From positions 1 through 45,491 of the forward strand of contig CANQUA010000019.1 in assembly GCA_947626915.1 (NCBI GenBank): DNA of 45,491 bases. The letters are read 5' to 3'. This DNA is from an uncultured Lachnospiraceae bacterium. GTDB taxonomy: Bacteria > Bacillota > Clostridia > Lachnospirales > Lachnospiraceae. Shown here one piece after another: positions 8,906-30,904 of this stretch. The notes beneath the pieces were generated by a model. That model saw only the letters and a program-made list of their open reading frames with translations. It did no database searches and was not told the origin of the DNA. The position numbers were made by a program, and so were the translations under genes. Numbering within the stretch: the stretch's first letter is position 1; each line of letters starts with the position of its first letter.

Positions 8906-10012
8906 ATGAACATCTCGATTGCAATCGCAGACACAGACAGAGATTACGTGAGCCGTCTTTCCGAAGTGCTCCAGCAGTATGATGAGCTGACGATCCATAT
9001 CTATACGAATGGTCAGAAGCTTCAGCAGGCTATTGACGATAGCCGCTTCGATGTGGTTTTATTTGATCCCGATATCTCGGATACGCGCCTGGCTTTCAGC
9101 AGCAAAGTCAAGCTGCCGGTCTGTCTCTACAGCGACGAGGCCCATAACGCCGGCCTCTATGCCGATCTTACTCAGGTCATAAAATATCAGAGAGTGAGCA
9201 ATATCTATAAAGAGGTTGTCAAAGAATATGCGGAAGTCGCCGGATATTCAGCTGATTTTGATATGTCCCAGAGTACGTTCATGCTGGCGGTGTATTCGCC
9301 GGTCGGCGGCTGCGGCAAGACGACGGTTGCCCTGGCGTTGGCCAGCGCCATTGCGGCCAAGGGCACGTCGGTGCTTTTCCTGAATATTGAGCAGCTGAGC
9401 AGTTCTTTCTGCGTGAATCCCCAGAAAGAGGCCGGCATCGTGTCCCTGGTGGAATTGGCGGAGATGGATCTGAACGGTGGCAGCATGGGGAAGAAAGAGA
9501 AGGGCGGAGATCCGAAAGAGAAGGAGCAGGTCAATTACGGCCTGAAGGTCAAAGGACTCTGGAAGCCGGGTATGGACGGCATGTATTATATTGAAGGCTT
9601 CGACCGGCTGGCCGATTACGATGCGACGACGGCAGAGGATATGTCTACGCTGTTAAGCAAGATCAAGCGCAGCGGCGTCTGCAGCGTGATCATTATCGAT
9701 ATGGGAAGCGGGCTGGACGCGATCGGAAAAGCGGTGCTGGCGGAAGCGGACCGCATTGCCGTCATAGAACGGGCCGGAGAACTGCCGGCGATGAAGATGA
9801 AGCTGTTCGCCCAGCAGGGAATCGTAAACGAGCATAAGAATAAAATGGTGCGGATCTATAATTTCGTGGAAAGCAATTCCAGATATGGGTCCGACCTGGA
9901 TGTGCCGCTGCTGGGAAGCATCCATAATTACGGAAATGCCCAGCTGGCATCCGTGATTCACTCGATCGGCAAGAACGGCGAGATTGCCGTCGATCAGATT
10001 ATGAAACGATAA
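8906..10012 (+). CDS. tadZ: TadZ/CpaE-like MinD-family ATPase of the Tad pilus
   Basis: TadZ proteins place the Tad machine at a cell pole or site. This 368-residue protein has the expected two parts: an N-terminal atypical receiver-like domain (ISIAIADTDRDYVSRL, then VVLFDPDISD) and a C-terminal ParA/MinD ATPase with the P-loop GGCGKTT at residues 134-140 and a VIIIDMGSGLD Walker B region. The lysine before the loop that marks the deviant Walker A is absent, as in many CpaE proteins. ATG 8906 is preferred because GGGGGAA is five bases upstream; ATG 8900, two codons earlier, is possible. The first 60 residues of the ATPase domain are followed by a Lys/Glu-rich loop (GKKEKGGDPKEKEQ). First gene of the operon. 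Confidence 0.85.
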   Translation: MNISIAIADTDRDYVSRLSEVLQQYDELTIHIYTNGQKLQQAIDDSRFDVVLFDPDISDTRLAFSSKVKLPVCLYSDEAHNAGLYADLTQVIKYQRVSNIYKEVVKEYAEVAGYSADFDMSQSTFMLAVYSPVGGCGKTTVALALASAIAAKGTSVLFLNIEQLSSSFCVNPQKEAGIVSLVELAEMDLNGGSMGKKEKGGDPKEKEQVNYGLKVKGLWKPGMDGMYYIEGFDRLADYDATTAEDMSTLLSKIKRSGVCSVIIIDMGSGLDAIGKAVLAEADRIAVIERAGELPAMKMKLFAQQGIVNEHKNKMVRIYNFVESNSRYGSDLDVPLLGSIHNYGNAQLASVIHSIGKNGEIAVDQIMKR

Positions 10013-10035
10013 AGGAAAGATCAGAGGGGACCGCC

Positions 10036-11334
10036 ATGGCAGAGAGCTATTTTATGAAAGAGGTCACGGAACTGAAGAAAGCGGTTCAGGAGGCCAGCCG
10101 GGTTCGGGACTATACCGATGAGGAGATCACGCAGCTGATCGATCAGAAGATCGCGGAGCGGATCGAATGGGCCCGCGTAAATAATACGGATATATACTGG
10201 TTCTACCAGAATATGTCCTTTAAGGATAAGAATACCTTAAAGTATACGGTTACGGAGTCCGTGGAAGGTCTGGGTATCCTGGGCAAGATCATTATGGATC
10301 CGGATATCACGGAGGTCATGATCAACGGATACGACCGGATCTTCGTGGAGAAAGCCGGCAAGCTGATGCGGATGGACGAACATTTCGAAAGTCCGGAGGA
10401 TCTGGTCCGTATCGTGCAGCGCTTTGTCAGCAGCATGGACCGTACCGTAGACGCCAGCAACCCGATCGTCGACGCCCGTCTGGAGGACGGCTCCCGTGTC
10501 CACGTCGTGTTCCCGCCGGTTGCGCTCGACGGCGCGACGGTGACGATCCGGCGCTTCTCGAAGACGCCGATGACCGTGGAAAAGCTGCTGGATTACAAAT
10601 CCATCACTCCTGAGGTGGCGGATTTCCTGGAAAAGGTAGTCCGGTCCCGGCACAACGTGTTCGTCTGCGGAGGTACCGGCAGCGGCAAGACGACTTTCCT
10701 GAATGCGATCTCCAACTTCATCCCGCCGTGGGAGCGCGTAATCACCATTGAGGACTCGGCGGAGCTGCAGATCAAAGGGATCCCCAACCTGGTGCGCATG
10801 GAGACGAAAAAGGCCAACTCGAAAGAGGCGACGGAGATTACGATCCGCGATCTGATCAAGGCGTCCCTGCGTATGAGACCGGACCGCATCGTTGTCGGCG
10901 AGGTCCGCGGCGAGGAGGCGCTGGATATGCTTCAGGCCATGAATACCGGCCATGACGGCAGCCTGTCCACTGGCCACGCCAACTCCGTGGAAGGTATGCT
11001 GAGCCGTCTGGAGACGATGGTCCTGACCGGAAGCGCGGATCTTCCGCTGGAAGCGATCCGGCAGCAGATCGGCGAGGCGGTGGATTACATCATCCATCTT
11101 TCCAGGCTCCGCGATTTCTCCAGGAAATGTATGGAGATCACGGAAGTGGTCGGATATAAAAACGGAAAGATCGAGCTGAACCCGATCTACAAATTCGAGG
11201 AGGACGAAACCTCCACCGTGAAGAAAGTATCGGGGCGGCTGCACCGGACGGAAAACAGGATCATAAACCAGGATAAGTTCATCCTGGCAGGAATCTACGA
11301 TTATCTGGAGGACAAAGATGGCGCAAGGCGGTAA
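10036..11334 (+). CDS. tadA: TadA/CpaF secretion ATPase
   Basis: The hexameric ATPase that powers pilin assembly and probably retraction. At 432 residues it has the CpaF layout: an N-terminal helical region, VMINGYDRIFVEKAGK, RIVQRFVSSMDR, Walker A GGTGSGKTT at residues 212-220, an Asp box around TIEDSAELQ, Walker B MRPDRIVVGEVRGEEALDMLQAMNTG, and the His box STGHANS. It begins 23 bases after tadZ, and its last codons overlap the start of tadB by 17 bases, which points to translational coupling. Confidence 0.95.
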   Translation: MAESYFMKEVTELKKAVQEASRVRDYTDEEITQLIDQKIAERIEWARVNNTDIYWFYQNMSFKDKNTLKYTVTESVEGLGILGKIIMDPDITEVMINGYDRIFVEKAGKLMRMDEHFESPEDLVRIVQRFVSSMDRTVDASNPIVDARLEDGSRVHVVFPPVALDGATVTIRRFSKTPMTVEKLLDYKSITPEVADFLEKVVRSRHNVFVCGGTGSGKTTFLNAISNFIPPWERVITIEDSAELQIKGIPNLVRMETKKANSKEATEITIRDLIKASLRMRPDRIVVGEVRGEEALDMLQAMNTGHDGSLSTGHANSVEGMLSRLETMVLTGSADLPLEAIRQQIGEAVDYIIHLSRLRDFSRKCMEITEVVGYKNGKIELNPIYKFEEDETSTVKKVSGRLHRTENRIINQDKFILAGIYDYLEDKDGARR

Positions 11335-12097
11335 AGAAAAAGTCAGGATCAAGTATTATGAAGACAATATGACGAAAACGCAGCATCTCATGGCCTATCT
11401 GGGGTTTTCGGCGGCGATCGGCGTGATTTTGTATATTTATTATCATCTTTGGATTGTGGCGATTGTCGGAGGTCTGCTGGTCGGGATCTTTCAGGAGAAG
11501 AATTATTCCAAATCCGTGATCCGCAAACGGCAGGCGCGTCTGAAACTGCAGTTTAAGGAGTTCCTTGAGATCGTTTCGATTTCAGTCAGCGGCGGCAGCG
11601 GCCGTTCGCTGGAAAACGCGATCGCGGATTCTCTCCGGGAGCTGAAAATGGTGTTTAACGCGGATGCGGATATCGTGCGGGAAGTGGCGCTGATCGTCAG
11701 CGATTACGAGCAGGCGGGCATTCCGATGGTGAAGGGATTTGAAGAGCTGGGCAAGAGGAGCGAGATCGACGATATCATGAGCTTTGCGACGATCTTCAAG
11801 ACGATCGAAGGCAAGACCAGCGATTTCGGCTACATCATCGCCCAGACCCGGGATATCATCAAGGACAAGGTGGAGATCACGATGGAGATCGAGACCAGTA
11901 TCACGTCCGCCAAGTCGGAGGCATATATGATGCTGGTGCTTCCGCTGGTACTGATCATCGTCATGTCGGCGATGGGAAGCGGTTTCCTGGATTCGCTGTT
12001 TACCACGTTTGTCGGCAGGGTTTCCGCTACGTTCGGCGTGGTCTGTACGTTTGCGTCCTATGTGATCGCAACCAGAGTGACGGAGATCGAAGTCTAA
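11318..12097 (+). CDS. tadB: TadB-like inner membrane platform protein
   Basis: A 259-residue polytopic protein with a T2SSF/GspF domain. Two membrane segments lie near residues 25-55 and a pair lies near the C-terminus (MLVLPLVLIIVMSAMGSG and a final hydrophobic helix). The cytoplasmic core contains LKLQFKEFLEIVSISVSGG, EQAGIPMVKGFEELGKR and FATIFKTIEGKTSDFG, typical of TadB. It forms the membrane platform on which the TadA ATPase acts, together with the next gene product. Confidence 0.9.
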   Translation: MAQGGKEKVRIKYYEDNMTKTQHLMAYLGFSAAIGVILYIYYHLWIVAIVGGLLVGIFQEKNYSKSVIRKRQARLKLQFKEFLEIVSISVSGGSGRSLENAIADSLRELKMVFNADADIVREVALIVSDYEQAGIPMVKGFEELGKRSEIDDIMSFATIFKTIEGKTSDFGYIIAQTRDIIKDKVEITMEIETSITSAKSEAYMMLVLPLVLIIVMSAMGSGFLDSLFTTFVGRVSATFGVVCTFASYVIATRVTEIEV

Positions 12098-12112
12098 AAG
12101 GAGGATGCGGCG

Positions 12113-13204
12113 ATGATTACAATAGTATTGATGGCGTTGATGACGGTTATGGCTGTGTTTTTCCTGGTCGAATCCGGCAAGGCAGGCAAAGGCGCGGCCG
12201 CAGAGGTGGTTATTTCCAGGGCCTGGAGCAATAAGTTCGGGAGGCAGGTGCTGGAAGAGAAGAAGGAAGCCTACATAGAGCAGTACAATAAATATCACAG
12301 GATCAAGGAAAAAAAGGCGCGGAACCAGTTGAAGGAATGGGATAAGCAGATCGCAGCTTACAAGAAGAATGAAGAGACCTACATGTCCGGAAAGAAATTT
12401 TCCGTTCTGGATCAGGTTACGCTTTTCGGCTATCAGCTGCTGGTGGATATCAAGCTGGACGGCGACAACAATCTGCTGCGTGCCCTGACCAACAGCTGCG
12501 AGCGCTCCGGTTATGTGGAACTGGAACGGACCCAGGAGACCAGCGGCAAGAAAAATTCCGCGATCTACGCTTACTATCTGCTGGCGTCTTTGTTCGCTTA
12601 TGTGTATATCGGCATTATGCTGGCCTGTTTTGCGGGCGTTGTCATGATCGCGGCGGACAATGCGGGCATGGGAGCCGTGATGGCGACGCTGGTCGCATTG
12701 GGAGGCCCGGCGCTGTACGGATATGTTCCGTATGATAATCTGCGCGCGAAGGCCGCGAAGCGTCAGGAGGAGATCGACCAGGGATTCCCCAATGCGATCT
12801 CCAAGATCACGCTTCTGAATATGGCGGGCATGAATATTACGAAAGCCATCGAGGAGACGGCCTACAGCGATGATTCTCTGATGTGCCGCGAGCTGCGGCT
12901 GGCGCTTAAGGAGATCGAGCGCGGCGCGACCGTGCAGTCGGCGATGACCCGGATGCAGTACCGCTGCGACAATAAATATCTGGATAAGATGGTCACGGTC
13001 GTGACGAAGAGCTATGTGTCCGGCAATACGAATCTGGACAGCGACCTGAAAGCGATCAACGACGAGTGCTGGCTGGATAAAAAGCACAATGCGAGGCGTA
13101 TGGGCGAAGCGGTGCAGAACAAACTGTTTGTGCCTACGATGCTGATGTTTGTCGGGATCCTGGTAGTGATTATCGTTCCTGCTATGTCCGGTTTTAATTT
13201 TTAA
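12113..13204 (+). CDS. tadC: TadC-like inner membrane platform protein
   Basis: A 363-residue second T2SSF-type platform protein. An N-terminal helix is followed by a charged cytoplasmic stretch (residues 30-110), two membrane helices at about 150-215, and a T2SSF core (FPNAISKITLLNMAGMN, YSDDSLMCRELRLALKEIERG). A final membrane helix is LFVPTMLMFVGILVVIIVPA. AAGGAGGATG lies just upstream of ATG 12113. It follows tadB by 15 bases, the usual tadABC order. Confidence 0.88.
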   Translation: MITIVLMALMTVMAVFFLVESGKAGKGAAAEVVISRAWSNKFGRQVLEEKKEAYIEQYNKYHRIKEKKARNQLKEWDKQIAAYKKNEETYMSGKKFSVLDQVTLFGYQLLVDIKLDGDNNLLRALTNSCERSGYVELERTQETSGKKNSAIYAYYLLASLFAYVYIGIMLACFAGVVMIAADNAGMGAVMATLVALGGPALYGYVPYDNLRAKAAKRQEEIDQGFPNAISKITLLNMAGMNITKAIEETAYSDDSLMCRELRLALKEIERGATVQSAMTRMQYRCDNKYLDKMVTVVTKSYVSGNTNLDSDLKAINDECWLDKKHNARRMGEAVQNKLFVPTMLMFVGILVVIIVPAMSGFNF

Positions 13205-13252
13205 GACTGGGGCAGGTTGGTAATAAAAATCTAAGAAGGAGGAGAAAAAGCG

Positions 13253-13489
13253 ATGGAACTGTTGGAGACCATGTGTATCTATGTGTCGCTCATGGCGATG
13301 AAGACCAGAGAAAGGGCAAAGAATTTTCTTGAATCGCAGTCCGGCGTGTCCAATGTGGTTGCTACGATCATCATCCTTTTGATTGTGGTTCTTCTCATTG
13401 GCGTGTTCTGGAACAGGCTTCAGGAGTGGCTCAAGGGCATTATGGATACCATTTTCGGCACTTCGTTTAATACGAGCGGATTGACGTGA
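13253..13489 (+). CDS. Flp1-type IVb pilin precursor
   Basis: A 78-residue prepilin, likely the main pilus subunit. A long 31-residue basic leader ends in QSG, followed by VSNVVATIIILLIVVLLIGVFW, the hydrophobic assembly helix, and a short tail. AAGGAGGAG upstream of ATG 13253 is the strongest ribosome site in the operon, fitting a highly made structural protein. The usual glutamate five residues after cleavage is missing: position +5 after Gly31 is Val36, while both TadE-like proteins here keep it. Its place after tadC and the TadV peptidase in the same operon support the call. Confidence 0.85.
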   Translation: MELLETMCIYVSLMAMKTRERAKNFLESQSGVSNVVATIIILLIVVLLIGVFWNRLQEWLKGIMDTIFGTSFNTSGLT

Positions 13490-13542
13490 TCCGAAAGCCG
13501 GAGCATTGAACCGTTAGATTTGGAACAGAGAGGGGCAGATAT

Positions 13543-14217
13543 ATGCAAGCAGAGAATAAACAATTCCAAAACCAAAAAGGAAGCGCGGAAGTGGAAGCGA
13601 TCTTTATTATGCCGATCGCTATCCTGAGCGTGCTGCTGCTTTTATATCTGGCCCTCTTTTTATTCCAGAGAGCGAATCTGCAGGCGGGGCTGGAGACGGC
13701 GCTCGTGTATTACAAAAATACGGTCACGGATACCTATGTGAAGCATAACAGCGACGTGACCTATGCGGGAGGGGACGGGAGCAGCATAGGAGCGGGGAAT
13801 TCCTATTCTGCGGGCGGACCGTTGTCTCCCTATCGGGGGATATTTGGGGATGGGAACAATATTGGCGACGCCTCAGCGTTTAAAAAATTTTTCCTGTCCG
13901 TCGCGGGAAATCAGTTGTTTGACGATGATCCGCAGGTAACGGTGGAATTTTCGAATTATGTTTATCTGAGACAGATCCATGTGACAGTGACGCAGAAAGT
14001 GGAAGCGCCGATCGATTTCAGTATTTTGGGAGTTGGAAACGAATATACGATATCCGCCTCGGCCCGCGTGGCCGTGGTCGATCACGATACGGTGATTCGT
14101 GATCTGGATTATGCGATAGATCTGCTGGAGGATACCAAGCTCGGGGAATGGGCGAGGAATTTTGCGGCAAAAGCAGGGGAAATTTACGGGAAAATAAAAG
14201 AAGTTCTTCATATGTAA
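13543..14217 (+). CDS. tadE: TadE-like pseudopilin
   Basis: A 224-residue minor pilin. The N-terminus has a prepilin site QKG/SAEVE (Gly13, Ser14, Glu18) and then the hydrophobic helix AIFIMPIAILSVLLLLYLAL, the TadE signature. The extracellular part contains a Gly/Ser-rich loop (residues 68-105), then beta-strand-like segments. SD GAGAGGGGC lies upstream of ATG 13543. TadE proteins are processed by the Tad peptidase and are needed for pilus assembly. Confidence 0.85.
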   Translation: MQAENKQFQNQKGSAEVEAIFIMPIAILSVLLLLYLALFLFQRANLQAGLETALVYYKNTVTDTYVKHNSDVTYAGGDGSSIGAGNSYSAGGPLSPYRGIFGDGNNIGDASAFKKFFLSVAGNQLFDDDPQVTVEFSNYVYLRQIHVTVTQKVEAPIDFSILGVGNEYTISASARVAVVDHDTVIRDLDYAIDLLEDTKLGEWARNFAAKAGEIYGKIKEVLHM

Positions 14218-14232: not shown

Positions 14233-16800
14233 ATGAAGATGAGCAGCTTGCTGAAAAAGAACGGAAAAAATGAAAAGAAGAAAAGAAAGTGGCACGGCAG
14301 CCACGGTATCATTACGGTGTTTGTGACGCTGATCATGGTGCCTGTGGTGGCGATCAACGGGATATTGGTCGACGCGGCCCGTATCAAGCTGTATAGTTCG
14401 CAGGCGGTCATGGCGGCGGACGCTTACGGGGACGCGGTGCTGAGCGAGTTTGATAATCTTCTGAAAGATCTCTACGGGCTTTTTTCGGTTACGCAGAATG
14501 AAGCGGGACTGAGCGCGCTGAAAACGTACGCGGATTACGCGGGGTATGCTTTCAATCCGAACGGAGACGGGAGCGGGAAGTTTTCGGGATTCATGCCGTA
14601 TAAAAACGCGGACGTGGATATCAGCTATACCAAAGTGGAGGGAGCCAGTCTGTCCAATAATAATGTCCTGATGACGCAGATCAGCGATTTCATGAAATAC
14701 CGCGTGATCGGAGAATTCGCGGAGGGCTTCGGACTGCTGGATGCGCTGAGCAGTATGGACCACATGGACGCGGACATGGATGCCATGGACGAGCGCACCG
14801 AGATCACAAAGAACAGTACGAAAGCGCTGGAGAAGATCAACGAGTATTATAAGATCCTGAAATCCATCAACGGATATCCGAGCTATATGCAGGCGAGGAA
14901 AAACGCGATCACTGCTTACGGCAATAAACTGACGGAGGTAGCGAGAAGCGCGGACTATAAAAAATACGTGAATTATCTGCAGCACAAAACGGAAATCGAC
15001 GCCGCGAGAGCGAAGCAGGAGCGCATCCGGAAGGCGGAGGAAGAAGCAAGAAGGAAACAGGAAGAAGCAGAAAAGAACAAGGATAAGGATGGCGGCAGTT
15101 CGACCCCTGCTGCTCCGTCGCCTCCGGCGGAGACGATGACGGAGGAAGAGCTGAGGCTGGTAGAACAGTATGTAGACGTCGAATCCTATAAAGGGCTTCT
15201 GCGGGCGACGTTCAGGAACTGCAAAGACGAAGCGGAGAGGCTGGACTCGGACCCGATCGACTTTGATAACGCAGGAAGTTTAATAGACGCTTTGGCGAGA
15301 AAGGCGGGAGAGCTGGACGGCGTTTTAAGCACGCTCCAGCAGCAGGTAGCGAACCTGAAAGCCAAGCTTCCGGGCTGCTCCGAAGAAGTGAAGAAAGGGC
15401 TTCAGGAAGAGATTGATACCCTGGAACAGCTCACAGAGATTGCCGATGATTTTAAAGACACCTGCGAGAGGATCAATGCCCATGATAATAAGGGCGCGAA
15501 CTCAAGCAACAAAACGGCGGTAAGGAATGCGACCACTCAGCTGAACGATGCGAGAGGAAATCTAATAGACGGCAATCTGGAGCCGCTGTCCTCTGCGGAC
15601 CAGGGATACTGGCCCCATTCGGTGGATCTGAGATGGTATAATTTCCAGGATGATAAAAAGCAGTTTTATGACGACCTGACGAGGCTGTGCGGAAACGGTT
15701 CGAGCGGCGACAAAAACGCCGGCGACGAAGACATTGAAAGCGCGGAAAACGCGCAGAAAGACGCGGAAAGAGAGGCGGGACTGGACCAGGACGAGCAGAC
15801 TTCAGCCAGAGATATTCCGAGCGGCATCGCGTCCCAGCTGCAGTCCAGCGGAAGTTCGGGAGACGTACCCAGCTGGGGCAGTTATTTTTCAAAGGGCCTT
15901 TCCTTTGACACATTGTCCCAGGCAGGAAGCCATATTCTGGATAAGTTCCTGGTGACTACTTACGATTTTGGGATGTTTTCCAGCCGTGTATCGGGGATCG
16001 CGCCGGAGGCGGACATGGACTCCGGTTCGAATACGGAAGAGGAATACGCGGATTACAGCCTTACCAAGATAAAGATGTCGAAGGACGTGAATTATCTTTA
16101 CGGCGCGGAACTGGAATATATCCTGGGGGGACATAACAGTTCAAAGTCGAACCTGAATAATACCAGGAATATCATCTGCGGCATCCGTATGACACTGAAC
16201 TTTGCGTCTTCCTATTCGATTAAAGAAGTAAACGATGCGATCAAGGCGATCGCGGATATTGCCGCGGCGGCCGCGACGGTGGCGGCGCCTGTAGTAAGGA
16301 TCGCGGTGAGCGGCGCTTTGCGCCTGGCCTTTGCGGGGATCGAGATGGCCGCGGACTGGACATCGCTTAAAAAGCGGGAGAACGTGGTGTTCTTCAAGCA
16401 GGAGCTGGATGATCTGGAATCGAAAGACCGAATCGCGAGCCTGCTCAAGGGGAGAGTGAATGCAGGTTCGGGAAAGAGCGACAGCTTCAGCCTCTCCTAT
16501 GAGGATTACCTGTATGTGCTGATCTGCTTGTTTATAAACGACAATACGCTGCTTTCGCGAACGTCGAACCTGATCACGCTCAATGTGAATCAGGCCCAGA
16601 ACAGCGGGGATACGCTGAGTTCGCTGAAGTTCAAGATGTCCGACACGGTAACGGCGGTGAAGAGCACCTGCAAGATCAAGGCGGATTTCGTGATTGTGCC
16701 GGAGAATATAGCGAAGCTGTTTTATGACGCGGATACGAACGCGCAGATCGAAGCGCTGGAAGACAATTACTACGGTTATTCCGTGATACGAGGCTATTAA
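14233..16800 (+). CDS. TadG-like DUF5702 protein with long coiled coil
   Basis: An 855-residue protein with one N-terminal membrane helix (GIITVFVTLIMVPVVAING followed by ILVDAARIKLYSS, the TadG-like start in which a hydrophobic helix runs into VDxxR). The large extracellular part includes helical, charged regions rich in Lys/Glu/Ala around residues 250-300, a Pro/Ser patch (SSTPAAPSPPAE), and an Ala-rich hydrophobic segment (IADIAAAAATVAAPVVRIAV) near 675-695. DUF5702 is the family I recognise. Its role is unproven; in Tad loci TadG-type proteins are thought to anchor or organise the pilus at the membrane. It follows tadE by 15 bases. Confidence 0.75.
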   Translation: MKMSSLLKKNGKNEKKKRKWHGSHGIITVFVTLIMVPVVAINGILVDAARIKLYSSQAVMAADAYGDAVLSEFDNLLKDLYGLFSVTQNEAGLSALKTYADYAGYAFNPNGDGSGKFSGFMPYKNADVDISYTKVEGASLSNNNVLMTQISDFMKYRVIGEFAEGFGLLDALSSMDHMDADMDAMDERTEITKNSTKALEKINEYYKILKSINGYPSYMQARKNAITAYGNKLTEVARSADYKKYVNYLQHKTEIDAARAKQERIRKAEEEARRKQEEAEKNKDKDGGSSTPAAPSPPAETMTEEELRLVEQYVDVESYKGLLRATFRNCKDEAERLDSDPIDFDNAGSLIDALARKAGELDGVLSTLQQQVANLKAKLPGCSEEVKKGLQEEIDTLEQLTEIADDFKDTCERINAHDNKGANSSNKTAVRNATTQLNDARGNLIDGNLEPLSSADQGYWPHSVDLRWYNFQDDKKQFYDDLTRLCGNGSSGDKNAGDEDIESAENAQKDAEREAGLDQDEQTSARDIPSGIASQLQSSGSSGDVPSWGSYFSKGLSFDTLSQAGSHILDKFLVTTYDFGMFSSRVSGIAPEADMDSGSNTEEEYADYSLTKIKMSKDVNYLYGAELEYILGGHNSSKSNLNNTRNIICGIRMTLNFASSYSIKEVNDAIKAIADIAAAAATVAAPVVRIAVSGALRLAFAGIEMAADWTSLKKRENVVFFKQELDDLESKDRIASLLKGRVNAGSGKSDSFSLSYEDYLYVLICLFINDNTLLSRTSNLITLNVNQAQNSGDTLSSLKFKMSDTVTAVKSTCKIKADFVIVPENIAKLFYDADTNAQIEALEDNYYGYSVIRGY

Positions 16801-17619: not shown

Positions 17620-17632
17620 GGAGGATCAAACG

Positions 17633-22585: not shown

Positions 22586-22614
22586 TTGTCTGCCGGAAAA
22601 GAGTGTTATATAAT
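22586..22614 (+). promoter_or_regulatory. Promoter of the kinase/VWA operon
   Basis: TTGTCT at 22586-22591 and a perfect TATAAT at 22609-22614 with a 17-base spacer. The start of transcription would be about 25 bases before the 22648 start codon. The -35/-10 pair resembles that of the Tad operon (TTGTCA, TATAAT). Confidence 0.62.
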
Positions 22615-23590: not shown

Positions 23591-26152
23591 ATGAGCGGAA
23601 ATGAAGAAACTTATCGCAGTAAAAAAGATTTTTTTGACAAGCTGAATGAAAGCTATGACCAGATCCAGCAGATCAGCTCCGGCGGCGGCGGTATTATTTA
23701 CCAGGGCATTCACCGGAGGCTGAAGGAGAAGGTCGTGCTGAAAAAGATCCGGTCGGATAAGGTCAGCATCATCGGCAGTGAACGGGAAATGAAGATCCTG
23801 ATGAGCCTGAAGCATACCTACCTTCCGAGGATCTACGATTTCTGGCATTACGAAGATGAAGTTTACACGGTCATGGAGTTCATTGAGGGGAAATCCTTTC
23901 AGGAGCTTCTGGATGCCGGGAGGACGTTCAGGGAAAAGGACGTGATACGCTGGACCCGTCAGCTGGCGGAGGTGCTGGAATACCTGCATAATTCCGAGCA
24001 GCATATTGTTCACAGCGATATCAAGCCGGCCAATCTGATGCTGACGCCCAAAGGCGATATCTGTCTGATCGATTTCAACGTATCGCTGCTGCAGGGCGGC
24101 GAGGCCGACGCGACCATCGGGTATTCGGAGTATTACGCGCCGGTGGAGCAGCTGATCTGGGTGGAATTGGCGCGTCAGAGAAGCATGGCGCAGCCGGCGG
24201 TGAAGAAAGAGCCGAAAAAGGTCGCGAAAGCGGGATCGGCCGGCAGTCTGACCGGCGGCGGGGACTTCGCCGGAGCCGGATTTTCCAGGCCGGAAATGGT
24301 CAAAAATAACGGAGCGCGCCTGACGCGGCCCGCGGATGACGATACGGATGTGGGCGGGAACCGCTCGGACGACAGCGACACGTATGTGGGCGGCGGCAGT
24401 GCGGACGAAGATACATACGTGGGCGGGAACCGGGCGGACGACGGCGACACGTATGTGGGCGGAGGCCAGACGGACGAAGATACATACGTGGGCGGAAGCC
24501 AGGCGGACGACGGCGATACGTACGTAGGCGGAGGCCGGGCCGGCAGCGGAGAGACGGAAGCCACGGAGGCTTACGGAGGTCCGGCTTACGGGGCTCCGAA
24601 TGGGGCCCGGGGAGCGGCCGGTTATCCGCCGGCGCAGCAGCCGCCTCAGCCCCAGGCAGTCCGGCAGACCCAGACCGGCCGGACGCAGACAGGGCGGACT
24701 TTGTCGGGCCGGACGCAGACGGGGCGGACCCTGTCGGGCCGGACCCAGACGACGCCCCAGCAGACAGGCATGAGCATGCGGGAATTCCGTTCTCAGAAAG
24801 CCCGTGAGATGATGGAGATTTACGGGAAGAAGCTGAAGGTCGATGAGCGGAGCGATATTTACAGCGCCTGCGCCACGATGTACCATATTCTGACCGGCAG
24901 GCGTCCGGCCCCCTGCTATATGGCTCTGGAGCCGGTGGAGACGGTGATGCCGTCGGTCAACGATGCGTTCGCGCAGATCCTGACCCGCGGCCTGCAGCAG
25001 GACCCGAAGAAGCGCTACAAAAACGTGTCGCAGATGCTGAAAGCCCTGCGCAGGCTGGGAAAACTGACCAAGTCCTATAAGCGTCTGCTTCACCGGCAGG
25101 ATTTCGTGCTGATTCTTCTGCTGGTCATCTTCCTCGGCAGCGCGGGAGCCACGTACGTCGGATGGGGGATGAGCACCGAGGGAGCCCTGGAGGAAAAGAT
25201 TGCCGCGGCGCAGGAATATTATGCCGACGGCCAGTACCAGGAAGGGCTGGACTATCTGGAGCAGAATATCCTGGCAAATCCGCTCTATCAGAACAGCGGC
25301 CAGATCAGCGAGGGGCATTATCTGGCGGCCGGATGTTATCTGGAGCTGGGAGAGCTTTCCGAGGCGGTCGGAGAATATCAGCGGGCCATTTTCCTGGACA
25401 ATACCCAGCCGGTGTATTACCGGGATTACGGGATCGCGCTGGCTCGGAGCGGCAATCTGCAGCAGGCCCGTGAGGCGCTTCTGCAGGCCCAGGCGAGAGG
25501 GCTGGAAAGCAGCAGCCTGAAGCTTCTGGAGGGCGAGATTGCCAGCCTGGAGGAGGATTACCGGGGAGCCGCTTCGGCGCTTCGGGAGTGCCTGGAGGAT
25601 ACGGACGATGATTCGATCGTTCTCCGCGCGGCCCTGAAGCTGGACGAAGTGCTGGCGGCGGACGGCGGCGACGAGGCCTATCCGGAGCGGATCCAGGTCC
25701 TGGAGGACGCCAGGAAGCGGCTGCCGAAAGAGCGGCTCCTGATGCTTCTGCAGCGCCTGACGCAGGTATACGGCGACTACGGCCAGCTGTCCGGGGACAC
25801 GTCCTATACGGAAAAGGCGGTGGACGCATTGTCGGAGATCATAGACATGGGCTACGGCACGATGGTGGAGTGGCTGGATAAGGCCGTCTATCTGCAGAGC
25901 CTGGGACGGTACGGGGAGGCGGAGGAGTGCCTGCTGGAGGCCGACGAGACCTATCCGGATAATTACCTGATCTACAAGAGACTGGCGTTTCTGGAGCTGG
26001 AGGTACCGGATTATGAGAAATTCGATACATATTTTAAGAGATGTAAAGAACTCTATGAGAAACTGCCGTCCGGCACAGAGCAGGATATGGAAATGGGATA
26101 TCTCTACCAGATCTATGACGAGGTCGTAGTGAAAGGCTGGTTGGAGGGATAG
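23591..26152 (+). CDS. Membrane-anchored Ser/Thr protein kinase with TPR tail and repeat insert
   Basis: An 853-residue Hanks-type kinase. Lobe one: glycine loop SSGGGGIIYQG (29-39), Lys51 in VVLKKI. Catalytic loop HSDIKPAN (141-148) with Asp143, Lys145, Asn148; metal-binding DFN (161-163). HSD replaces HRD and DFN replaces DFG, but catalytic residues remain. After YYAPVEQL (181-188) about 220 residues of low-complexity sequence are inserted, including six acidic DT-x-VGG repeats (249-317) and QTGRT/LSGRT repeats (357-385). The kinase fold then resumes with DERSDIYSACATMYHILTGRRP. A single membrane helix follows near 500-525, then TPR-like helices to the end, probably outside the cell. It is likely the writer opposing the PP2C phosphatase (inference). 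Confidence 0.9.
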   Translation: MSGNEETYRSKKDFFDKLNESYDQIQQISSGGGGIIYQGIHRRLKEKVVLKKIRSDKVSIIGSEREMKILMSLKHTYLPRIYDFWHYEDEVYTVMEFIEGKSFQELLDAGRTFREKDVIRWTRQLAEVLEYLHNSEQHIVHSDIKPANLMLTPKGDICLIDFNVSLLQGGEADATIGYSEYYAPVEQLIWVELARQRSMAQPAVKKEPKKVAKAGSAGSLTGGGDFAGAGFSRPEMVKNNGARLTRPADDDTDVGGNRSDDSDTYVGGGSADEDTYVGGNRADDGDTYVGGGQTDEDTYVGGSQADDGDTYVGGGRAGSGETEATEAYGGPAYGAPNGARGAAGYPPAQQPPQPQAVRQTQTGRTQTGRTLSGRTQTGRTLSGRTQTTPQQTGMSMREFRSQKAREMMEIYGKKLKVDERSDIYSACATMYHILTGRRPAPCYMALEPVETVMPSVNDAFAQILTRGLQQDPKKRYKNVSQMLKALRRLGKLTKSYKRLLHRQDFVLILLLVIFLGSAGATYVGWGMSTEGALEEKIAAAQEYYADGQYQEGLDYLEQNILANPLYQNSGQISEGHYLAAGCYLELGELSEAVGEYQRAIFLDNTQPVYYRDYGIALARSGNLQQAREALLQAQARGLESSSLKLLEGEIASLEEDYRGAASALRECLEDTDDDSIVLRAALKLDEVLAADGGDEAYPERIQVLEDARKRLPKERLLMLLQRLTQVYGDYGQLSGDTSYTEKAVDALSEIIDMGYGTMVEWLDKAVYLQSLGRYGEAEECLLEADETYPDNYLIYKRLAFLELEVPDYEKFDTYFKRCKELYEKLPSGTEQDMEMGYLYQIYDEVVVKGWLEG
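24335..24541 (+). repeat. Six tandem 33/36-bp repeats encoding DT-x-VGG
   Basis: The 207 bases encode units of 11 and 12 residues in alternation (consensus D-D/E-x-D-T-Y-V-G-G), so a 69-bp pair of units occurs three times. Threonines fall at residues 252, 264, 275, 287, 298 and 310 of the kinase. Reading frame is kept throughout. Confidence 0.9.
24658..24755 (+). repeat. Short repeats encoding QTGRT/LSGRT
   Basis: A run of 15-base units, variously reading CAGACxGGxCGGACx or TTGTCGGGCCGGACG, encodes alternating QTGRT and LSGRT pentapeptides inside the kinase insert. Basic and Thr/Ser-rich, the opposite charge of the acidic DT-x-VGG repeats before it. Confidence 0.7.
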
Positions 26153-26292: not shown

Positions 26293-26295
26293 CGT

Positions 26296-27771
26296 ATGAA
26301 GAGATTATGGAAGAATCATAAGCTTCTGGTGATCGGGATTCCCTGCGTTCTGGCGGCGGCGGTGGCTGCGGGGATTCTGATCTTCCAGTACCGCCGGTCC
26401 GTTCAGGTCAGGGCGTGCATCGAAGAGGCGAACCGGTATCTGTCCGAACTGGATTATGAGCAGGCGATCGCGTCCTACCGGCAGGCCCTGGATATCGACG
26501 ATAAGAACCGGGAGGCGAATCTGGGACTGGCGGAAGCCTACGATGCCAACAATATGTCGGTGTATGCCGAGAACGTTTATAAGAGCATGCTGGAAAATGA
26601 CAGCAGCCAGGCGGACGTGTATGAGAAGCTGGCGGATCTGTATATCCGGGACAACAAACTGGACGAGGCCAGGGAACTTCTGGATACGGCCGTGACCCAG
26701 GTGGAGGACGAGGCGGTCACGAAGCTGTATTATGTGGCCCGTCCGGAGCCGCCCACATCCAGCTACGACGACGGCGCTTACACGGACCGCATCCGCGTGG
26801 AGCTGATCCCGTCGGATGAGAGGCAGACCATCTACTACACGCTGGACGGTACGACGCCGACGGAGGAATCCGCCGTGTATGAGAAGCCGCTTATTTTAAG
26901 AAACGGCAGAACGCAGGTGAAAGCCATGGTCATCAACTCGACCGGCTATCAGAGCGACATAGCGGTGTGGGATTATGATATCCAGATCGTGGATGTGGTG
27001 GTGGAGCTGGAAGAGCCTGTGATCGAGCAGACGGTGCGCCGGCAGCTGCAGATTCCGAACGACGAGCCGGTCTACAACGACGATATCGAGCAGATCACGG
27101 AGCTTTATATCATCGGCACGAACATTTCCAGTTTTGAGGACCAGAACAGCGTGTATCTGAAGGAAAACATGTATACGATCGACGGCTATCCGTACAATGT
27201 GCCCGATTACGGCCAGATCACGACCTTCGCGGATCTGCAGTATATGCCGTTCCTGGAAAAGGTGGTCGTGCTCTACCAGCCGGAGCTGGACATCAGCGCC
27301 CTGTCCCAGTGCACGGGTCTGAAAGAGCTCAGCCTGGTCGGGGACGAGCTGAACAGCCGGGATATCGCGGTGCTGAGCGGCCTGACCGGGCTGGAAAAGC
27401 TGAACCTGGGCTGGAACCAGATCCAGGACATTTCCGCGCTGAGCGGTCTGACCAATCTGAAATCCCTGGGGCTCTGGGGCAATCAGGTCCGGGACCTGCA
27501 GCCGGCGGCGGGGCTTGTCAATCTGGAATACCTGGATTTTTCGGACAACGATGTGCAGGACATTGCGCCGGTGGCGGGACTTACGCAGCTGAAACAGCTG
27601 TGGATGTATTATAACCGGATCAGCGACATCAGCGCCGTTTCCGGGCTCTCCAATCTGGAGGTCCTGATGCTGCGCGACAATCCCATCAGCAATCCGGAGG
27701 CGGTGCGGAGCATTTACCCGCATCTGACCAGGATCGATACGGATATTCTGAATCTGGGAGGTGAGCAGTGA
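26296..27771 (+). CDS. Membrane-anchored TPR / chitobiase-C-like / leucine-rich repeat protein
   Basis: A 491-residue protein: basic N-terminus, membrane helix (LLVIGIPCVLAAAVAAGILIF), TPR region with two or three units (residues 40-145, DYEQAIASYRQALDIDDKN), a CHB_HEX_C-like beta domain (RQTIYYTLDGTTPTEESAVY, residues 165-225), then about seven 22-residue leucine-rich repeats of internalin type (LTGLEKLNLGWNQIQDISAL) from 300 to 480. The LRR part should be extracellular. It overlaps the next gene by one base (TGATG), so translation is coupled. Confidence 0.86.
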   Translation: MKRLWKNHKLLVIGIPCVLAAAVAAGILIFQYRRSVQVRACIEEANRYLSELDYEQAIASYRQALDIDDKNREANLGLAEAYDANNMSVYAENVYKSMLENDSSQADVYEKLADLYIRDNKLDEARELLDTAVTQVEDEAVTKLYYVARPEPPTSSYDDGAYTDRIRVELIPSDERQTIYYTLDGTTPTEESAVYEKPLILRNGRTQVKAMVINSTGYQSDIAVWDYDIQIVDVVVELEEPVIEQTVRRQLQIPNDEPVYNDDIEQITELYIIGTNISSFEDQNSVYLKENMYTIDGYPYNVPDYGQITTFADLQYMPFLEKVVVLYQPELDISALSQCTGLKELSLVGDELNSRDIAVLSGLTGLEKLNLGWNQIQDISALSGLTNLKSLGLWGNQVRDLQPAAGLVNLEYLDFSDNDVQDIAPVAGLTQLKQLWMYYNRISDISAVSGLSNLEVLMLRDNPISNPEAVRSIYPHLTRIDTDILNLGGEQ

Positions 27772-29978
27772 TGCAGGAAGCAAAGAAAAAGAAGATCCGT
27801 CCGGCCATGATCGCGGCGGTCGTGATCGTGGCGGTCATTGCGGCGGTCGGCATTTTCTTCTTTCTCAGGATACGGCGGCTGGAGACGCAGGTAAAGCAGC
27901 AGAATTATGTTTCTTCCCGTCTGATTGAAATGGGGGATTATGAGCAGGCCAGGATCCTGGCGGCCCAGACGGACCAGATCCGGAACAATATCACCTCCCG
28001 GCAGCTTTTGGTGCTGGCGTCCGGATTCCAGGCGGATTATTCCTCCGGCATTCGTTACGCGGAAGGGTATCTGGAGCAGGAAGAGGACGAGGCGATCGAA
28101 CTTGCGAAGGATGCCATGATCCATTTCGTGAACGCGGAGGAAGAGCTGGACGAGAACGACTATTCGTATTACGAGCAGTGCGAGAACCTGAAGGAAGAGG
28201 TCAGAACGATGCTTCTGAGCCTGCTTCTGAGGGTGCAGAATACGATCAAGGTTAATAAATCCAGCGAGAGCATCCTGGCCATGCTGGATATGATGTCGTC
28301 CCAGGGGCAGGGGCTGACTCCCGAGGCGCTGGCAGAGCTGGAGAAGGACAATTCGCCTCTCAGCCGCAAACTGCAGACGGCCTACGCCATCCAGACCGGA
28401 GATTATACGAAGGCGTTTGAGACGGCGAAAAAGACGTTTGAAGAAAACGATTCCTTTGAGAACCGTGCGATGCTGGCCAATCTGGTGGCCAAGAGCGGCA
28501 GCCTGATCGACGGGGACGACGAGAGGACGACAGAGCTGCGGCGGCAGCAGGACGAACTGCGGCAGGAGCTGAATTCGCTGCAGAACCAGTATTATCAGTC
28601 CACCTCGGCGACAGAGCAGTCCAAACTGACAAGGCAGATCGAGAACCTGCAGGCAGAGATCCAGGACTGCGAGGATGAGATCGCGGCCGAGCCGGCGAAG
28701 CGTGCGATCAACTTCATCGAGACGACGACGCCGATCTCGGAGCGGGATACCGTGTCCTACCGGCTGGAGCTGGCGCAGCTTTACTACCAGGCGAAGGACC
28801 GGGAACGCGCCAAGGATCTTCTGGTGGAAGTGATCAAGGGGGACGACCAGAGCCATGATCCCGCTACGATGCTGATGAACGATTTCATTGTCTTCTATCA
28901 GATGATGAACGGCCAGGAGGTGAAGCCGGATTACATGGACGATCAGATCCTGAACGTGGCGGTGATCTGGGACCGCATCGCGCAGCTGCTGAATTTCATC
29001 GAAAGCGGATGGCAGTACGCGGAGGCCGAGTCGTTCTACGGTTACGTGCTGAGCATTCTGGATGAGCTTTACAACGGCATCATCATCCGTGAGATCGACG
29101 CCACCAGGTTCCCGACCGTGCGTGTGACCGTGAACGTGGCGATGGATCTGGATAAGAAGCTGGTAAAGGATAATTTCTCTCTGCTGGAGATGGATGAGCG
29201 CGTCACGAACTTTGAGATCATTTCCAACGAAGAGCAGGAGATGGACGAGGCCATGTCGGTGGTGCTGGTCGTGGACCGAAGCGGAAGTATGGGCGGCGCG
29301 CCGATGGATGACACGAAGAAGGCGGTTTCCAATTTCATCAAGAGCATCAATGACAATGTGAAGGCGTCCCTTGTTACGTTTGACGACAGCGCGTATGTGG
29401 AATGCGAGCTGACCAATAATCAGAATGAGGTCCTGCGCGCGATCCAGGCGGTGAACATCGGAGGAGGCACCAATATCTACTCCGGTCTGGAAAAAGCCGG
29501 CGAGGTGCTGAACAATGTGTCCGGCAGGAAGATCGTGATCCTGCTGTCGGACGGCGCGGACGGCAGCCGCGGCTATATCGACACGGTGCTGGACGACCTA
29601 AACCGCAGAAATATCTACGTTTACAGCGTAGGCTTCGGCGGAGCGGATACCGAATACCTGAGCTATATCGCGACCCGCTGCCGGGGCAAATTCATCCAGG
29701 CGGATTCCAGTGAGATGCTGGGCGAGATCTACTCGGCCATCGGCAATTACATGGTGAACGATTACATCCTGCAGTTTGATGTGGTCATGTCGCCGGAGGA
29801 ATTCACCCGGAACGTGAATGTGTCCGTGGATGTCAACGACGCGTTTGCGGAGAAAGAGTATCATGTGGGCGTTCCGTATGAGAATATCGTGGATGAAGCC
29901 AACCTGGAGCCGGAGGCGGATTACTTTAACCAGATCGGCGGTTCCTGGATGAATCGTCAGCAGGGAGGGCAGGAATGA
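27771..29978 (+). CDS. Membrane-anchored von Willebrand A domain protein
   Basis: A 735-residue protein with a basic start, membrane helix (AMIAAVVIVAVIAAVGIFFFL), a long helical region with TPR-like and coiled-coil stretches (residues 35-330), and a C-terminal VWA domain. The MIDAS metal site is intact: DRSGS (Asp502, Ser504, Ser506), GGGTNIYSG, and LLSDGADGS. VWA domains bind protein ligands through this metal. ATG 27771 is preferred over GTG 27768 because GGGAGG is about seven bases upstream. It overlaps the next gene by four bases. It probably acts outside the cell near the pilus (inference). Confidence 0.88.
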   Translation: MQEAKKKKIRPAMIAAVVIVAVIAAVGIFFFLRIRRLETQVKQQNYVSSRLIEMGDYEQARILAAQTDQIRNNITSRQLLVLASGFQADYSSGIRYAEGYLEQEEDEAIELAKDAMIHFVNAEEELDENDYSYYEQCENLKEEVRTMLLSLLLRVQNTIKVNKSSESILAMLDMMSSQGQGLTPEALAELEKDNSPLSRKLQTAYAIQTGDYTKAFETAKKTFEENDSFENRAMLANLVAKSGSLIDGDDERTTELRRQQDELRQELNSLQNQYYQSTSATEQSKLTRQIENLQAEIQDCEDEIAAEPAKRAINFIETTTPISERDTVSYRLELAQLYYQAKDRERAKDLLVEVIKGDDQSHDPATMLMNDFIVFYQMMNGQEVKPDYMDDQILNVAVIWDRIAQLLNFIESGWQYAEAESFYGYVLSILDELYNGIIIREIDATRFPTVRVTVNVAMDLDKKLVKDNFSLLEMDERVTNFEIISNEEQEMDEAMSVVLVVDRSGSMGGAPMDDTKKAVSNFIKSINDNVKASLVTFDDSAYVECELTNNQNEVLRAIQAVNIGGGTNIYSGLEKAGEVLNNVSGRKIVILLSDGADGSRGYIDTVLDDLNRRNIYVYSVGFGGADTEYLSYIATRCRGKFIQADSSEMLGEIYSAIGNYMVNDYILQFDVVMSPEEFTRNVNVSVDVNDAFAEKEYHVGVPYENIVDEANLEPEADYFNQIGGSWMNRQQGGQE

Positions 29979-30904
29979 TGAAAAAGACGGATTACAAGCG
30001 TAAGCTGACAGGCGTTCTGCTGCTGGTTCTGAGTCTTGTTCTTCTGTGCCTGGCGGTCTGGATGTTCACGAAAACGCTGGGGACGGCGCTGCTGTTTACG
30101 GATTCCAGGATCGGACGGTTTGCCAGATATTACTGGCTTCTGCTGCTGGCGGCTGTGTTGTGCCTGGCCGCGGGCCTGGTGCTGATGAAGTGGAAAGGAA
30201 AGACGGAAACGGCGGAGGCCGGCGCGGAGCCGGGACAGACGGACATCGGGGAGGCGGACGGAAAACCGGCCGCCGCCGCGGAAACGCCGAAGGAGCGGAA
30301 AAAGAGAGAAAAACAGGAGAAAAAGGCGGAGGCGAGGCAGAAAAAGGCGGAAAAGGGTAAGAAGCCGGGCCTCAGACCGACGGCTGTTTCCCCAAAGGAG
30401 ACCATGCCTGCGCAGCCGGATGGCGAGGAGACGGAGATCGCCGGTTTTGCGGACGGGACGGAAGAATTTACGGACGAAACGGAGATCTTCGAGAAAGAAG
30501 CAGAGGCCGTTTCGAAGGGACTCGTGCCGGAGACGGTTCCCGCAAAAGAGACTGCCGGAATTCCGGATGTGAAAGAGGATGCGGCGGACGGGGACGAGAC
30601 GGAGATCGTCGGAGGCAGCGCGGAGGAGACGAGACCCAAACAGGCGGAGGTCGTGACTTTGATGAAGCCGGCGGAGAAGAAGCCGGCCGCTCCCGCGGAA
30701 AAAGCCGAAGCGGAGGTGCCCGCGGATCAGACGAAAGCCAAACCTGCAGGGATCGTATCGTTCAGCAAAGCGGCGGAGAAAAAGGCGGGCGTCAAGCCGG
30801 GCGCGGCGCAGGGAAAAGCCTCGGGATCGGCATTCTGCCCGCAATGCGGCAAGCCGGTTAAGAAGGGAGCCGCGTTCTGCGTCTACTGCGGCAATAAGCT
30901 GTAG
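29975..30904 (+). CDS. Two-helix membrane protein with acidic Thr motifs and C-terminal zinc ribbon
   Basis: A 309-residue protein. Two membrane helices lie near residues 10-30 and 50-70; a long Lys/Glu/Ala-rich cytoplasmic region follows. It contains GEETEIAGF, TDETEIFEKE and GDETEIVGG, with [DE]-T-E-[IV] sites like those of the kinase and FHA proteins. The C-terminus is a zinc ribbon, CPQCGKPVKKGAAFCVYCG. The start overlaps the stop of the VWA gene; a second ATG lies three bases on. It is last in the operon, with a terminator 80 bases downstream. A scaffold role is suggested only by context. Confidence 0.82.
   Translation: MMKKTDYKRKLTGVLLLVLSLVLLCLAVWMFTKTLGTALLFTDSRIGRFARYYWLLLLAAVLCLAAGLVLMKWKGKTETAEAGAEPGQTDIGEADGKPAAAAETPKERKKREKQEKKAEARQKKAEKGKKPGLRPTAVSPKETMPAQPDGEETEIAGFADGTEEFTDETEIFEKEAEAVSKGLVPETVPAKETAGIPDVKEDAADGDETEIVGGSAEETRPKQAEVVTLMKPAEKKPAAPAEKAEAEVPADQTKAKPAGIVSFSKAAEKKAGVKPGAAQGKASGSAFCPQCGKPVKKGAAFCVYCGNKL

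Follow-up and report, generated by a model that had tools for sequence, protein, structure and literature searches.

Gene content and layout of the locus

The window analysed here is a stretch of 45,491 nucleotides on contig C19 of an uncultured Lachnospiraceae bacterium, whose genome of 3.18 Mb is 99.4% complete. Its positions 8906 to 30904 carry Tad pilus genes followed by genes for a WG-repeat protein, a DUF6382-FHA protein and a PP2C phosphatase, and then by genes for a TPR-bearing kinase and for LRR, VWA and zinc-ribbon proteins, a content that had been proposed in a preliminary description and was borne out by open reading frame calling and Pfam searches. As argued below, the kinase, the FHA protein and the phosphatase may act as writer, reader and eraser of a threonine-phosphorylation switch that serves the pilus.

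All genes lie on the forward strand unless stated otherwise. The first run opens with TadZ, made up of an atypical receiver and a P-loop ATPase (8906–10012; PF21194 39 bits, AAA_31 27.5 bits), and the CpaF/TadA ATPase (10036–11334; T2SSE 196 bits), followed by a TadB-like platform protein that was placed by position (11318–12097; T2SSF 18.3 bits, cut-off 25.2) and by the TadC platform protein (12113–13204; T2SSF 39.8 bits). An Flp1-like pilin with one membrane segment (13253–13489; PF16982 28.7 bits, cut-off 33.5) precedes a pseudopilin-like protein, TadE1 (13543–14217), which has no Pfam match and one N-terminal membrane segment, and which iterated profiles tie to the TadE2 family. The pilus genes end with a DUF5702 pilus-locus protein (14233–16800; PF18960 75.9 bits), a TadE-like pseudopilin (16816–17619; PF07811 24.4 bits) and an A24 prepilin peptidase (17624–18265; PF01478 54.3 bits). 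The CpaF ATPase, TadZ, TadC, the prepilin peptidase and TadE thus pass their Pfam cut-offs, and the TadB-like and Flp1-like candidates, which score under theirs, fit in position and size. The last genes of the run, separated by gaps of 12 to 27 bases, encode the WG-repeat protein (18278–19615; PF14903 113.7 bits), the DUF6382-FHA protein (19643–21193; PF19909 50.6 bits, FHA 44.2 bits) and the PP2C phosphatase (21213–21944; PF13672 58.5 bits).

The second run begins with a small membrane protein, TM126 (22648–23028), which has no Pfam match, and a zinc-ribbon protein, ZnR1 (23043–23486; PF13240 52.7 bits); they are 52% and 45% identical, respectively, to proteins of locus L106, on a contig of genome G028 that carries EssC over its cut-off. 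Then come the kinase (23591–26152; Pkinase 117.4 bits), a membrane-anchored protein with TPR, Fn3-associated and LRR parts (26296–27771; LRR_4 85.3 bits, CHB_HEX_C_1 55 bits), a membrane-anchored VWA protein with a DxSxS motif, DRSGS (27768–29978; VWA 88.5 bits), and a second zinc-ribbon protein, ZnR2, whose tail carries threonine motifs (29975–30904; PF13240 30.6 bits). The LRR, VWA and ZnR2 genes overlap by 4 bases each. Between the two runs sits a reverse-strand gene for a lone A24_N prepilin-peptidase domain (22013–22483; PF06750 79.5 bits), found at the same place in genomes G014 and G020; the earlier description of two adjacent forward operons did not include it. This domain is encoded apart from the A24 catalytic gene of the first run, and the two are perhaps a split peptidase.

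The two similar promoters of the same description were also found, as matches to a sigma-70 consensus only: TTGTCA-17-TATAAT before the Tad operon (8816–8844, forward; 11/12) and TTGTCT-17-TATAAT before the second run (22586–22614, forward; 10/12). The scan gave 3 sites in 400 bases before the Tad operon, against a chance mean of 0.4, and 3 sites in 1.8 kb for the second run, against a chance mean of 1.5. Topology was read from a plain hydropathy scan, not a trained predictor. It places one N-terminal membrane segment in each of the WG, LRR and VWA proteins and one at about residues 499–517 of the kinase, two in ZnR2, and none in the FHA protein, PP2C or ZnR1. Because the WG, LRR, VWA and kinase proteins have single segments, their repeat and VWA parts and the TPR part of the kinase probably lie outside the cell, and the two segments of ZnR2 make its zinc ribbon probably cytosolic.

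Recurrence of the triad and exchange of the neighbouring cassette

To place the locus among its relatives, we mapped their genes with our own gene caller and with profiles iterated from the window proteins, by which the labels TPR/WG/LRR, ZnR, TadV and IgCW are rough; many of the genomes searched are fragmented. DUF6382 matched 111 of 145 genomes and DUF5702 matched 106 of 145, and each list holds a strong and a weak class, for which we coin the names type 1 (strong) and type 2 (weak). The window locus belongs to type 2. A type-1 Tad locus (L035) lies on contig C12 of the same genome; it has a DUF6382-FHA protein with the FHA-proximal site FHTTLLYT, and no kinase or PP2C in the stretch. The Tad loci fetched are a part of the DUF6382 and DUF5702 matches, and a type-2 locus was counted when both families were present in its fetched stretch, which gave 29 loci, 28 of them informative (L041 ends at a contig edge).

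Of these 28 type-2 loci, 20 have a kinase at a distance of up to 8 kb, 21 have PP2C in that range and 19 have both, whereas neither a kinase, a PP2C nor a VWA gene occurs in the fetched stretch of any of 21 type-1 loci. As a neighbour of type-2 Tad loci the FHA-PP2C-kinase triad is conserved, and for kinase, FHA and PP2C it is not the case that the kinase half is rarely found beside Tad genes in other genomes. In the genus of the window, kinase and PP2C accompany 13 of 13 type-2 loci, and because the 12 loci other than the window share the Tad-FHA-PP2C-kinase arrangement, that of the window is more than chance. The VWA, LRR and zinc-ribbon proteins, which had been counted as parts of the same system, are not general to it: 3 of the 28 loci (the window, G020 and G055) have a VWA gene at up to 12 kb, with one further case in L169, which was found via its kinase. 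To speak of a distinct system is fair in the sense of a recurrent combination, seen in the genus itself, in L169 and in L079; its parts are of known kinds.

The genes downstream of PP2C differ between congeners. Ten of the 12 other same-genus loci have a different kinase and then an adhesin-like protein (IgCW), L046 breaks off behind a kinase of that other kind, and G020 is window-like. In G006, G013, G014 and G019, the WG, FHA, PP2C and DUF5702 genes score 268–916 bits against those of the window, and the next kinase only 154–184 bits against the window kinase; the gene after this kinase encodes a product of about 1250 aa. In G014 the kinase of the pair matches PQQ_2 weakly (25.0 bits, cut-off 27.6), and its partner has choline-binding and He_PIG repeats. 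Since the A24_N gene is present in G014 and G020 as it is in the window, the exchange point lies after this gene. Judged by these comparisons, the kinase-LRR-VWA-ZnR cassette is exchangeable and seems to take the place of the propeller kinase and adhesin-like protein that most congeners have as a pair.

Close VWA relatives are limited, among the genomes compared, to G020 (87%) and G009 (58%). More distant company is provided by L169, from another genus, where kinase, LRR, VWA and ZnR2 follow Tad-WG-FHA-PP2C without TM126, ZnR1 or A24_N. Its LRR (59%), VWA (42%) and kinase C-part (44%) are more identical to those of the window than its FHA protein (26%), which points to a cassette that is either more mobile or slower to change than the Tad genes; the Tad, WG, FHA and PP2C genes of L169 are only 26–37% identical to the window's. 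In L079, from a third genus (G055), ZnR and VWA follow Tad-WG-FHA-PP2C together with an insert-free DFG kinase.

The exchangeability of the cassette bears on the explanation that these are chance neighbours, in which the kinase-LRR-VWA-ZnR set is an independent envelope sensor that happens to lie beside a Tad locus, and only Tad, WG, FHA and PP2C (joined in congeners by the other kinase) belong together. In G009 the cassette stands on a contig of its own without Tad or type VII secretion genes (L077, G009:C42; kinase 54%, LRR 65% and VWA 59% identical to the window), adjoined by Mrp antiporter genes, while the Tad locus of this genome (L042) carries the other kinase; no EssC was found in G009, which is 80% complete. 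Relatives of the cassette also occur on EssC contigs (L105/L106, L096/L144), and in the window itself an opposite-strand gene and a promoter-like site separate PP2C from the cassette. The propeller-kinase pair is similarly independent in part: of 20 loci scoring above 1000 bits, Tad genes are present in the fetched stretch of 13, L101 shows just the end of a Tad locus and 6 have none, two of the latter on EssC contigs (L098, L104). Set against this, the cassette occupies the place of the other kinase in most congeners, it recurs in L169 and, with another kinase, in L079, and its kinases match best, or tie, with the FHA motif of their own genome (see below), so that we regard chance neighbourhood as unlikely. 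Elsewhere in the window genome, on contig C13, locus L036 encodes a 1067-aa kinase-LRR protein, a second protein that combines an ABC ATPase domain with two FHA domains, and a PP2C, with no Tad genes in the stretch.

The EssC contigs raise the further question of type VII secretion (T7SS). The window encodes all four kinds of type VII signalling part close together, as identified by Pfam: kinase, PPM phosphatase, DUF6382-FHA and VWA. PMC11217815 reports new T7SS types with kinases, PPM phosphatases, DUF6382-FHA and VWA proteins, one or another of which, TPR-kinases included, occur in T7SSc/e/f/j, and Tad genes beside T7SSg/h; the TsjD kinase is predicted to have a TPR domain, and the authors raise control by threonine phosphorylation. 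Among our genomes, EssC exceeds its cut-off in 25 of 145, and TPR-kinases lie on EssC contigs in G028, G038, G016, G005, G023, G083 and G133. Eight VWA+FHA fusion proteins of about 500 aa, all confirmed by Pfam, support at the sequence level a working link between VWA and FHA proteins; six are on contigs with EssC over its cut-off (L107, L108, L109, L112, L144, L154), and the genomes of the other two (L168, L175) were not searched for EssC. That the window locus is itself a remnant or cousin of type VII secretion, with incidental pilus genes, is nevertheless very improbable, as most core Tad parts exceed their Pfam cut-offs and the single EssC match in the window genome reaches 105 bits (cut-off 778), which resembles the FtsK-range matches of most other genomes. 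On this search a T7SS in the window genome was rejected; WXG100 was absent from the Pfam matches of the window proteins scanned, no genome-wide WXG100 search having been made.

Kinase insert, FHA domain and threonine motifs

By its catalytic residues the window kinase fits a Hanks-type Ser/Thr kinase. K51, D143, N148, D161, E186 and D422, which we take to be the catalytic Lys, the HxD Asp, the Asn, the metal Asp, the APE Glu and the helix F Asp, are invariant in two kinase alignments, with HSD and DFN in place of HRD and DFG. The Pkinase match stops early, covering residues 22–184 only, because the kinase domain is split by an insert. According to the alignment this insert has 231 aa and lies between APE and helix F (24149–24841, forward), and it stands between YAPVE/YASPE and DxRSDIYS in 12 of 12 aligned kinases. 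Six threonine motifs of the form DT(Y/D)VGG fall within it (24335–24535, forward). No PASTA domain is among the Pfam matches of this kinase, which has TPR instead.

A tree of 43 kinase domains unites all inserted kinases in one group of 32 rows (support 99/97) that includes L050, with 19 aa, and L111, with an insert. The window kinase lies within a TPR branch of 12 rows (5 T7SS-linked, 5 neither, 2 Tad), the support of which is not strong (91/69), and the propeller kinases form a separate branch (100/99). Among kinases that could be parsed by sequence patterns, unparsed ones being left out, an insert of more than 30 aa is present in 51 of 62 DFN kinases versus 0 of 11 non-DFN kinases. The window genome has 10 kinase matches in all. 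One of its other contigs (C27, L110) and G020 (L111) carry a TPR-kinase with an insert of 182–196 aa full of DETEL/DRTEL-like repeats, adjoining a large TPR protein, with neither Tad nor EssC seen in the stretch. In L082 (G054), a rearranged Tad locus, the kinase has no parsed insert, and its threonine motif DLDATV is nearly identical to LDATVLL and DLDATML of the FHA protein. An anti-phage defence system was considered and dropped: of 7 window proteins only the kinase matched, with generic kinase matches, the best 25 of 33 lying in the kinase domain.

The FHA domain of the window has G435, R436, S457, N479, G480 and T481, of which the Gly-Arg, the Ser and the Asn presumably are phosphothreonine-binding site positions. 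Across an alignment of 40 rows, position 436 is Lys or Arg in 34, 457 is Ser in 30 and 479 is Asn in 37; position 460 is His in 38 rows and Gln in the window. EmbR, GarA and OdhI are among the best PDB sequence matches of the FHA profile. The DUF6382 part (19643–20122) has no PDB match up to an E of 10, and weakly resembles the EssB/YukC pseudokinase region by profile comparison. Its identification as such a pseudokinase was not adopted, the likeness being suggestive only: a two-row EssB profile gave E = 2e-4 and a probability of 47, and a three-row profile, one row being a fragment, scored 13.9 versus 14.4 for a control. With single EssB proteins, L138 (E 7e-5) comes out first against 60 randomly drawn unannotated proteins, both EssB being among them by chance, and L139 (16.5) stays at control level. 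Searching 199 genomes of the phylum for YukC yielded 2 matches, of which 1 passed the cut-off, and a better profile could not be built from so few.

Immediately before the FHA domain stands the threonine motif DGDTVIGG (20810–20833, forward), a candidate phosphosite of a kind enriched at this place in relatives. We counted motifs of the form acidic-T-x-[VILM], a rule set after reading the sequences, against shuffled sequences; neither shared ancestry nor tandem duplication is removed by shuffling, and the counts therefore reflect conservation no less than repeated origin. Kinase inserts longer than 35 aa contain 41 motifs versus 13.0 ± 3.3 (0 of 2000 shuffles), spread over 13 of 21 inserts, and the 65 aa before the FHA domain contain 30 versus 9.8 ± 3.0 (0 of 2000), in 21 of 30 proteins (33 before near-copies were removed). 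In this first set there is no enrichment in the distal linker (13 vs 11.8) or the FHA domain (12 vs 10.7). Dropping the acidic condition gives 51 vs 26.4 next to the FHA domain and 52 vs 31.6 in the inserts.

With the rule fixed, we turned to 37 new stretches, picked for the similarity of their kinases in a search across 348 genomes. Of these kinases, 15 and that of L169 were unparsed and stand outside the count, some visibly with inserts and some without. The inserts again hold an excess (22 vs 9.8 ± 2.9, 1 of 2000; present in 11 of 15), as do the FHA-proximal stretches (7 vs 2.3, 10 of 2000; in 7 of 7), the distal linker giving 4 vs 2.6. Type-1 FHA proteins, fetched after the rule had been set, have 20 versus 6.2 FHA-proximal motifs (0 of 2000; in 16 of 18), and show no excess in the distal stretch (11 vs 11.6) or the FHA domain (5 vs 9.4). 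The tail of the window ZnR2 reads EETEIAG, DETEIF and DETEIVGG, and that of G020, translated by eye from the DNA, DETEIAD and DATEIGG; as a general feature of ZnR2 such motifs were rejected, not being seen in the G009 and L169 copies.

The motifs of kinase and FHA protein also match each other within loci, as judged by the best pair of T-centred 8-mers between kinase insert and FHA-proximal stretch of each locus. In a first set of 15 loci the matching reached p = 0.0004, with p = 0.36 for a distal control. In a pooled set of 20 loci (13 from the first set), from which the near-copies L043 and L047 were dropped and which L169 and L172 entered after the parsing patterns had been loosened, own pairs scored 18.45 versus 13.97 for foreign pairs (p = 0.0002; 0.00035 without the window; 0.76 for the distal linker). 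Permuting within FHA similarity groups, which partly controls for relatedness, gave p = 0.0009 for 19 loci and 0.0074 for 16. Examples of matched kinase and FHA motifs are DGDTYVGG and DGDTVIGG in the window, DSDTDIAS and DEGTDIGG in L169, and EEDTELME and NNDTELGA in G009, where the two proteins are encoded on different contigs. In a 4 × 4 table each cassette kinase does best, or ties, with the FHA motif of its own genome. Shared threonine motifs as a concrete link between kinase and FHA protein are thereby supported at the level of sequence.

One could alternatively suppose that the FHA protein is a structural, phosphate-independent part of the Tad machine, like the FHA of EssC that binds the EssB pseudokinase in T7SSb, and that kinase and PP2C act elsewhere, on the cell wall or an adhesin. 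Such a role would suit the 19 of 21 type-1 loci that have DUF6382-FHA without kinase or PP2C in the stretch (the other two have DUF6382 with no FHA detected), as well as the missing FHA histidine of the window, and the FHA-pseudokinase contact of the Bacillus subtilis T7SSb, seen in Escherichia coli, is thought to be phosphate-independent (PMC9600267). It would leave the threonine motif, which is enriched before the FHA domain of type-1 proteins too, and the mostly retained binding-site positions to be accounted for, and for a type-1 FHA protein a different kinase of its genome could do the work. We therefore consider a purely structural role quite improbable.

Two genes flanking the locus lie on the reverse strand. 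In the frame at 31378–33546 (722 aa) a histidine kinase is connected to an OmpR-type response regulator through a proline-rich linker that contains an internal ATG, and the frame is either a fusion or a read-through two-component pair; the protein at 5721–8924 combines acyltransferase_3, a CapA-like PGA_cap and a GDSL hydrolase.

The proposed switch and its relation to known systems

Taken together, we think it probable that the window holds a type-2 Tad locus with its own threonine-phosphorylation docking switch, similar to that of PknG and GarA. The kinase, with its single membrane segment, would sense an outside signal via its TPR domain, together with the membrane-anchored VWA, LRR and WG proteins, the LRR-VWA-ZnR set being an exchangeable sensor cassette. 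Inside, it would phosphorylate threonines in its own insert as well as the threonine of like motif that directly precedes the FHA domain. The phosphorylated insert could then dock the FHA domain, and the phosphorylated linker threonine could be bound by the FHA domain in cis or in a neighbour, which would change the hold of the FHA protein on the base of the Tad motor until PP2C resets the switch. What the sequences show directly is the gene content, its recurrence, the conserved motifs and their matching. Phosphorylation, docking and the direction of the effect are what we infer from sequence, and the gene neighbourhood is what points to the Tad base (CpaF, TadZ, TadB or TadC) as the putative target.

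Several observations weigh against this switch, among them the stand-alone cassette of G009, the propeller-kinase pairs without Tad genes (6/20), and the reverse-strand gene and promoter-like site within the locus. Seven of the 28 type-2 loci have no kinase in the fetched stretch (L051, L086, L087, L088, L089, L090, L091), three of which (L086, L087, L089) also have no detected FHA domain, and in L082 the kinase lies 9.9 kb away, beyond the 8 kb limit. L078, a same-genus locus of G007 outside the 28-locus count, has weak-class DUF5702 and TadE and no DUF6382, PP2C or kinase in the stretch; another contig of G007 (L116) carries fragments of TadBC, DUF6382 and a propeller kinase, and the type-2 locus of this genome may be broken. 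Type-1 loci retain the FHA motif without a kinase nearby, the window has Gln where the FHA histidine is common, and 11 of the 62 DFN kinases have only 18–25 aa at the insert site. As to the motifs, the first enrichment test was not blind, the looser motif is unspecific, being enriched in the FHA domain as well once the acidic condition is dropped (57 vs 28.3), and the five new kinase-FHA pairs on their own give p = 0.22, with two of the pooled loci admitted by loosened patterns.

A wider proposal, which we put forward tentatively as a real possibility, is that in the DFN/HSD kinase clade the segment from APE to helix F has become a multivalent array of phosphothreonines, co-adapted with the FHA protein of its own locus, and that the module is common to, and has been swapped between, envelope machines that are unrelated, Tad pili and type VII secretion, each with its own sensor cassette. 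We know neither of a trigger of Tad pili in Gram-positive gut bacteria nor of what retracts them there. The locus offers a defined writer, reader and eraser set beside pilus genes, with candidate threonines named. If this is right, one signalling module is plugged into both pili and type VII secretion, and the docking arrays of kinases co-evolve with the FHA proteins that read them, a relation that could serve to assign FHA readers to their kinases in many genomes. In literature searched by titles and starts of abstracts, a search outside which most subscription papers and all preprints fall, we recognised no description of a Tad-linked kinase-FHA-PP2C set or of such a kinase insert.

Among known systems, T7SSe, T7SSj and T7SSc have the same kinds of part as the window (TsxD kinase, TsxF PPM, TseJ DUF6382-FHA, TscE VWA; PMC11217815), but there the machine is a T7SS, whereas the window has a Tad pilus in a genome without EssC. 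TscE is described as cytosolic, whereas the VWA protein of the window has a membrane segment, and a threonine-array insert is not described for the T7SS kinases in the available text of that paper. The kinase-Fha-TssL system of type VI secretion likewise places a kinase and an FHA reader on a multi-part envelope machine, with the difference that Fha binds a phosphothreonine of TssL (PMC3953482), and here the motif is in the FHA protein itself. Kil of Myxococcus (PMC8460266) and CpaF class III (PMC12019362) are published cases of FHA domains in Tad or Tad-like systems. The domains are fused there to the ATPase or, in Kil, also present in several other proteins, in contrast to the separate DUF6382-FHA, kinase and PP2C proteins of the window; the Kil text, as far as available, does not mention kinases, and that on CpaF only pyruvate kinase.

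A parallel in mechanism is offered by PknG of Actinobacteria, whose autophosphorylated disordered sites recruit OdhI or GarA, the threonine of which is then phosphorylated (PMC8546545). Common to both are a threonine motif before the FHA domain, a kinase with disordered FHA-recruiting threonine sites and a TPR scaffold on the kinase, docking being proposed from sequence in our case. The target is metabolism for PknG, as opposed to what would be a pilus here, and the window kinase has a membrane segment. The docking sites lie in an N-terminal extension in PknG and between APE and helix F in the window kinase.

The archaellum is kin to type IV pili, and its Arn proteins are cytosolic. There, too, FHA, vWA, zinc and kinase parts, in ArnA (zinc finger-FHA), ArnB (vWA) and the kinase ArnC, regulate a filament machine, by modulating archaellum gene expression (PMC12852372, PMC6509490), a likeness that we regard as analogy only. 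In the window, by comparison, the VWA part is predicted to lie outside the cell, and FHA and zinc ribbon belong to separate proteins instead of an ArnA-like fusion.

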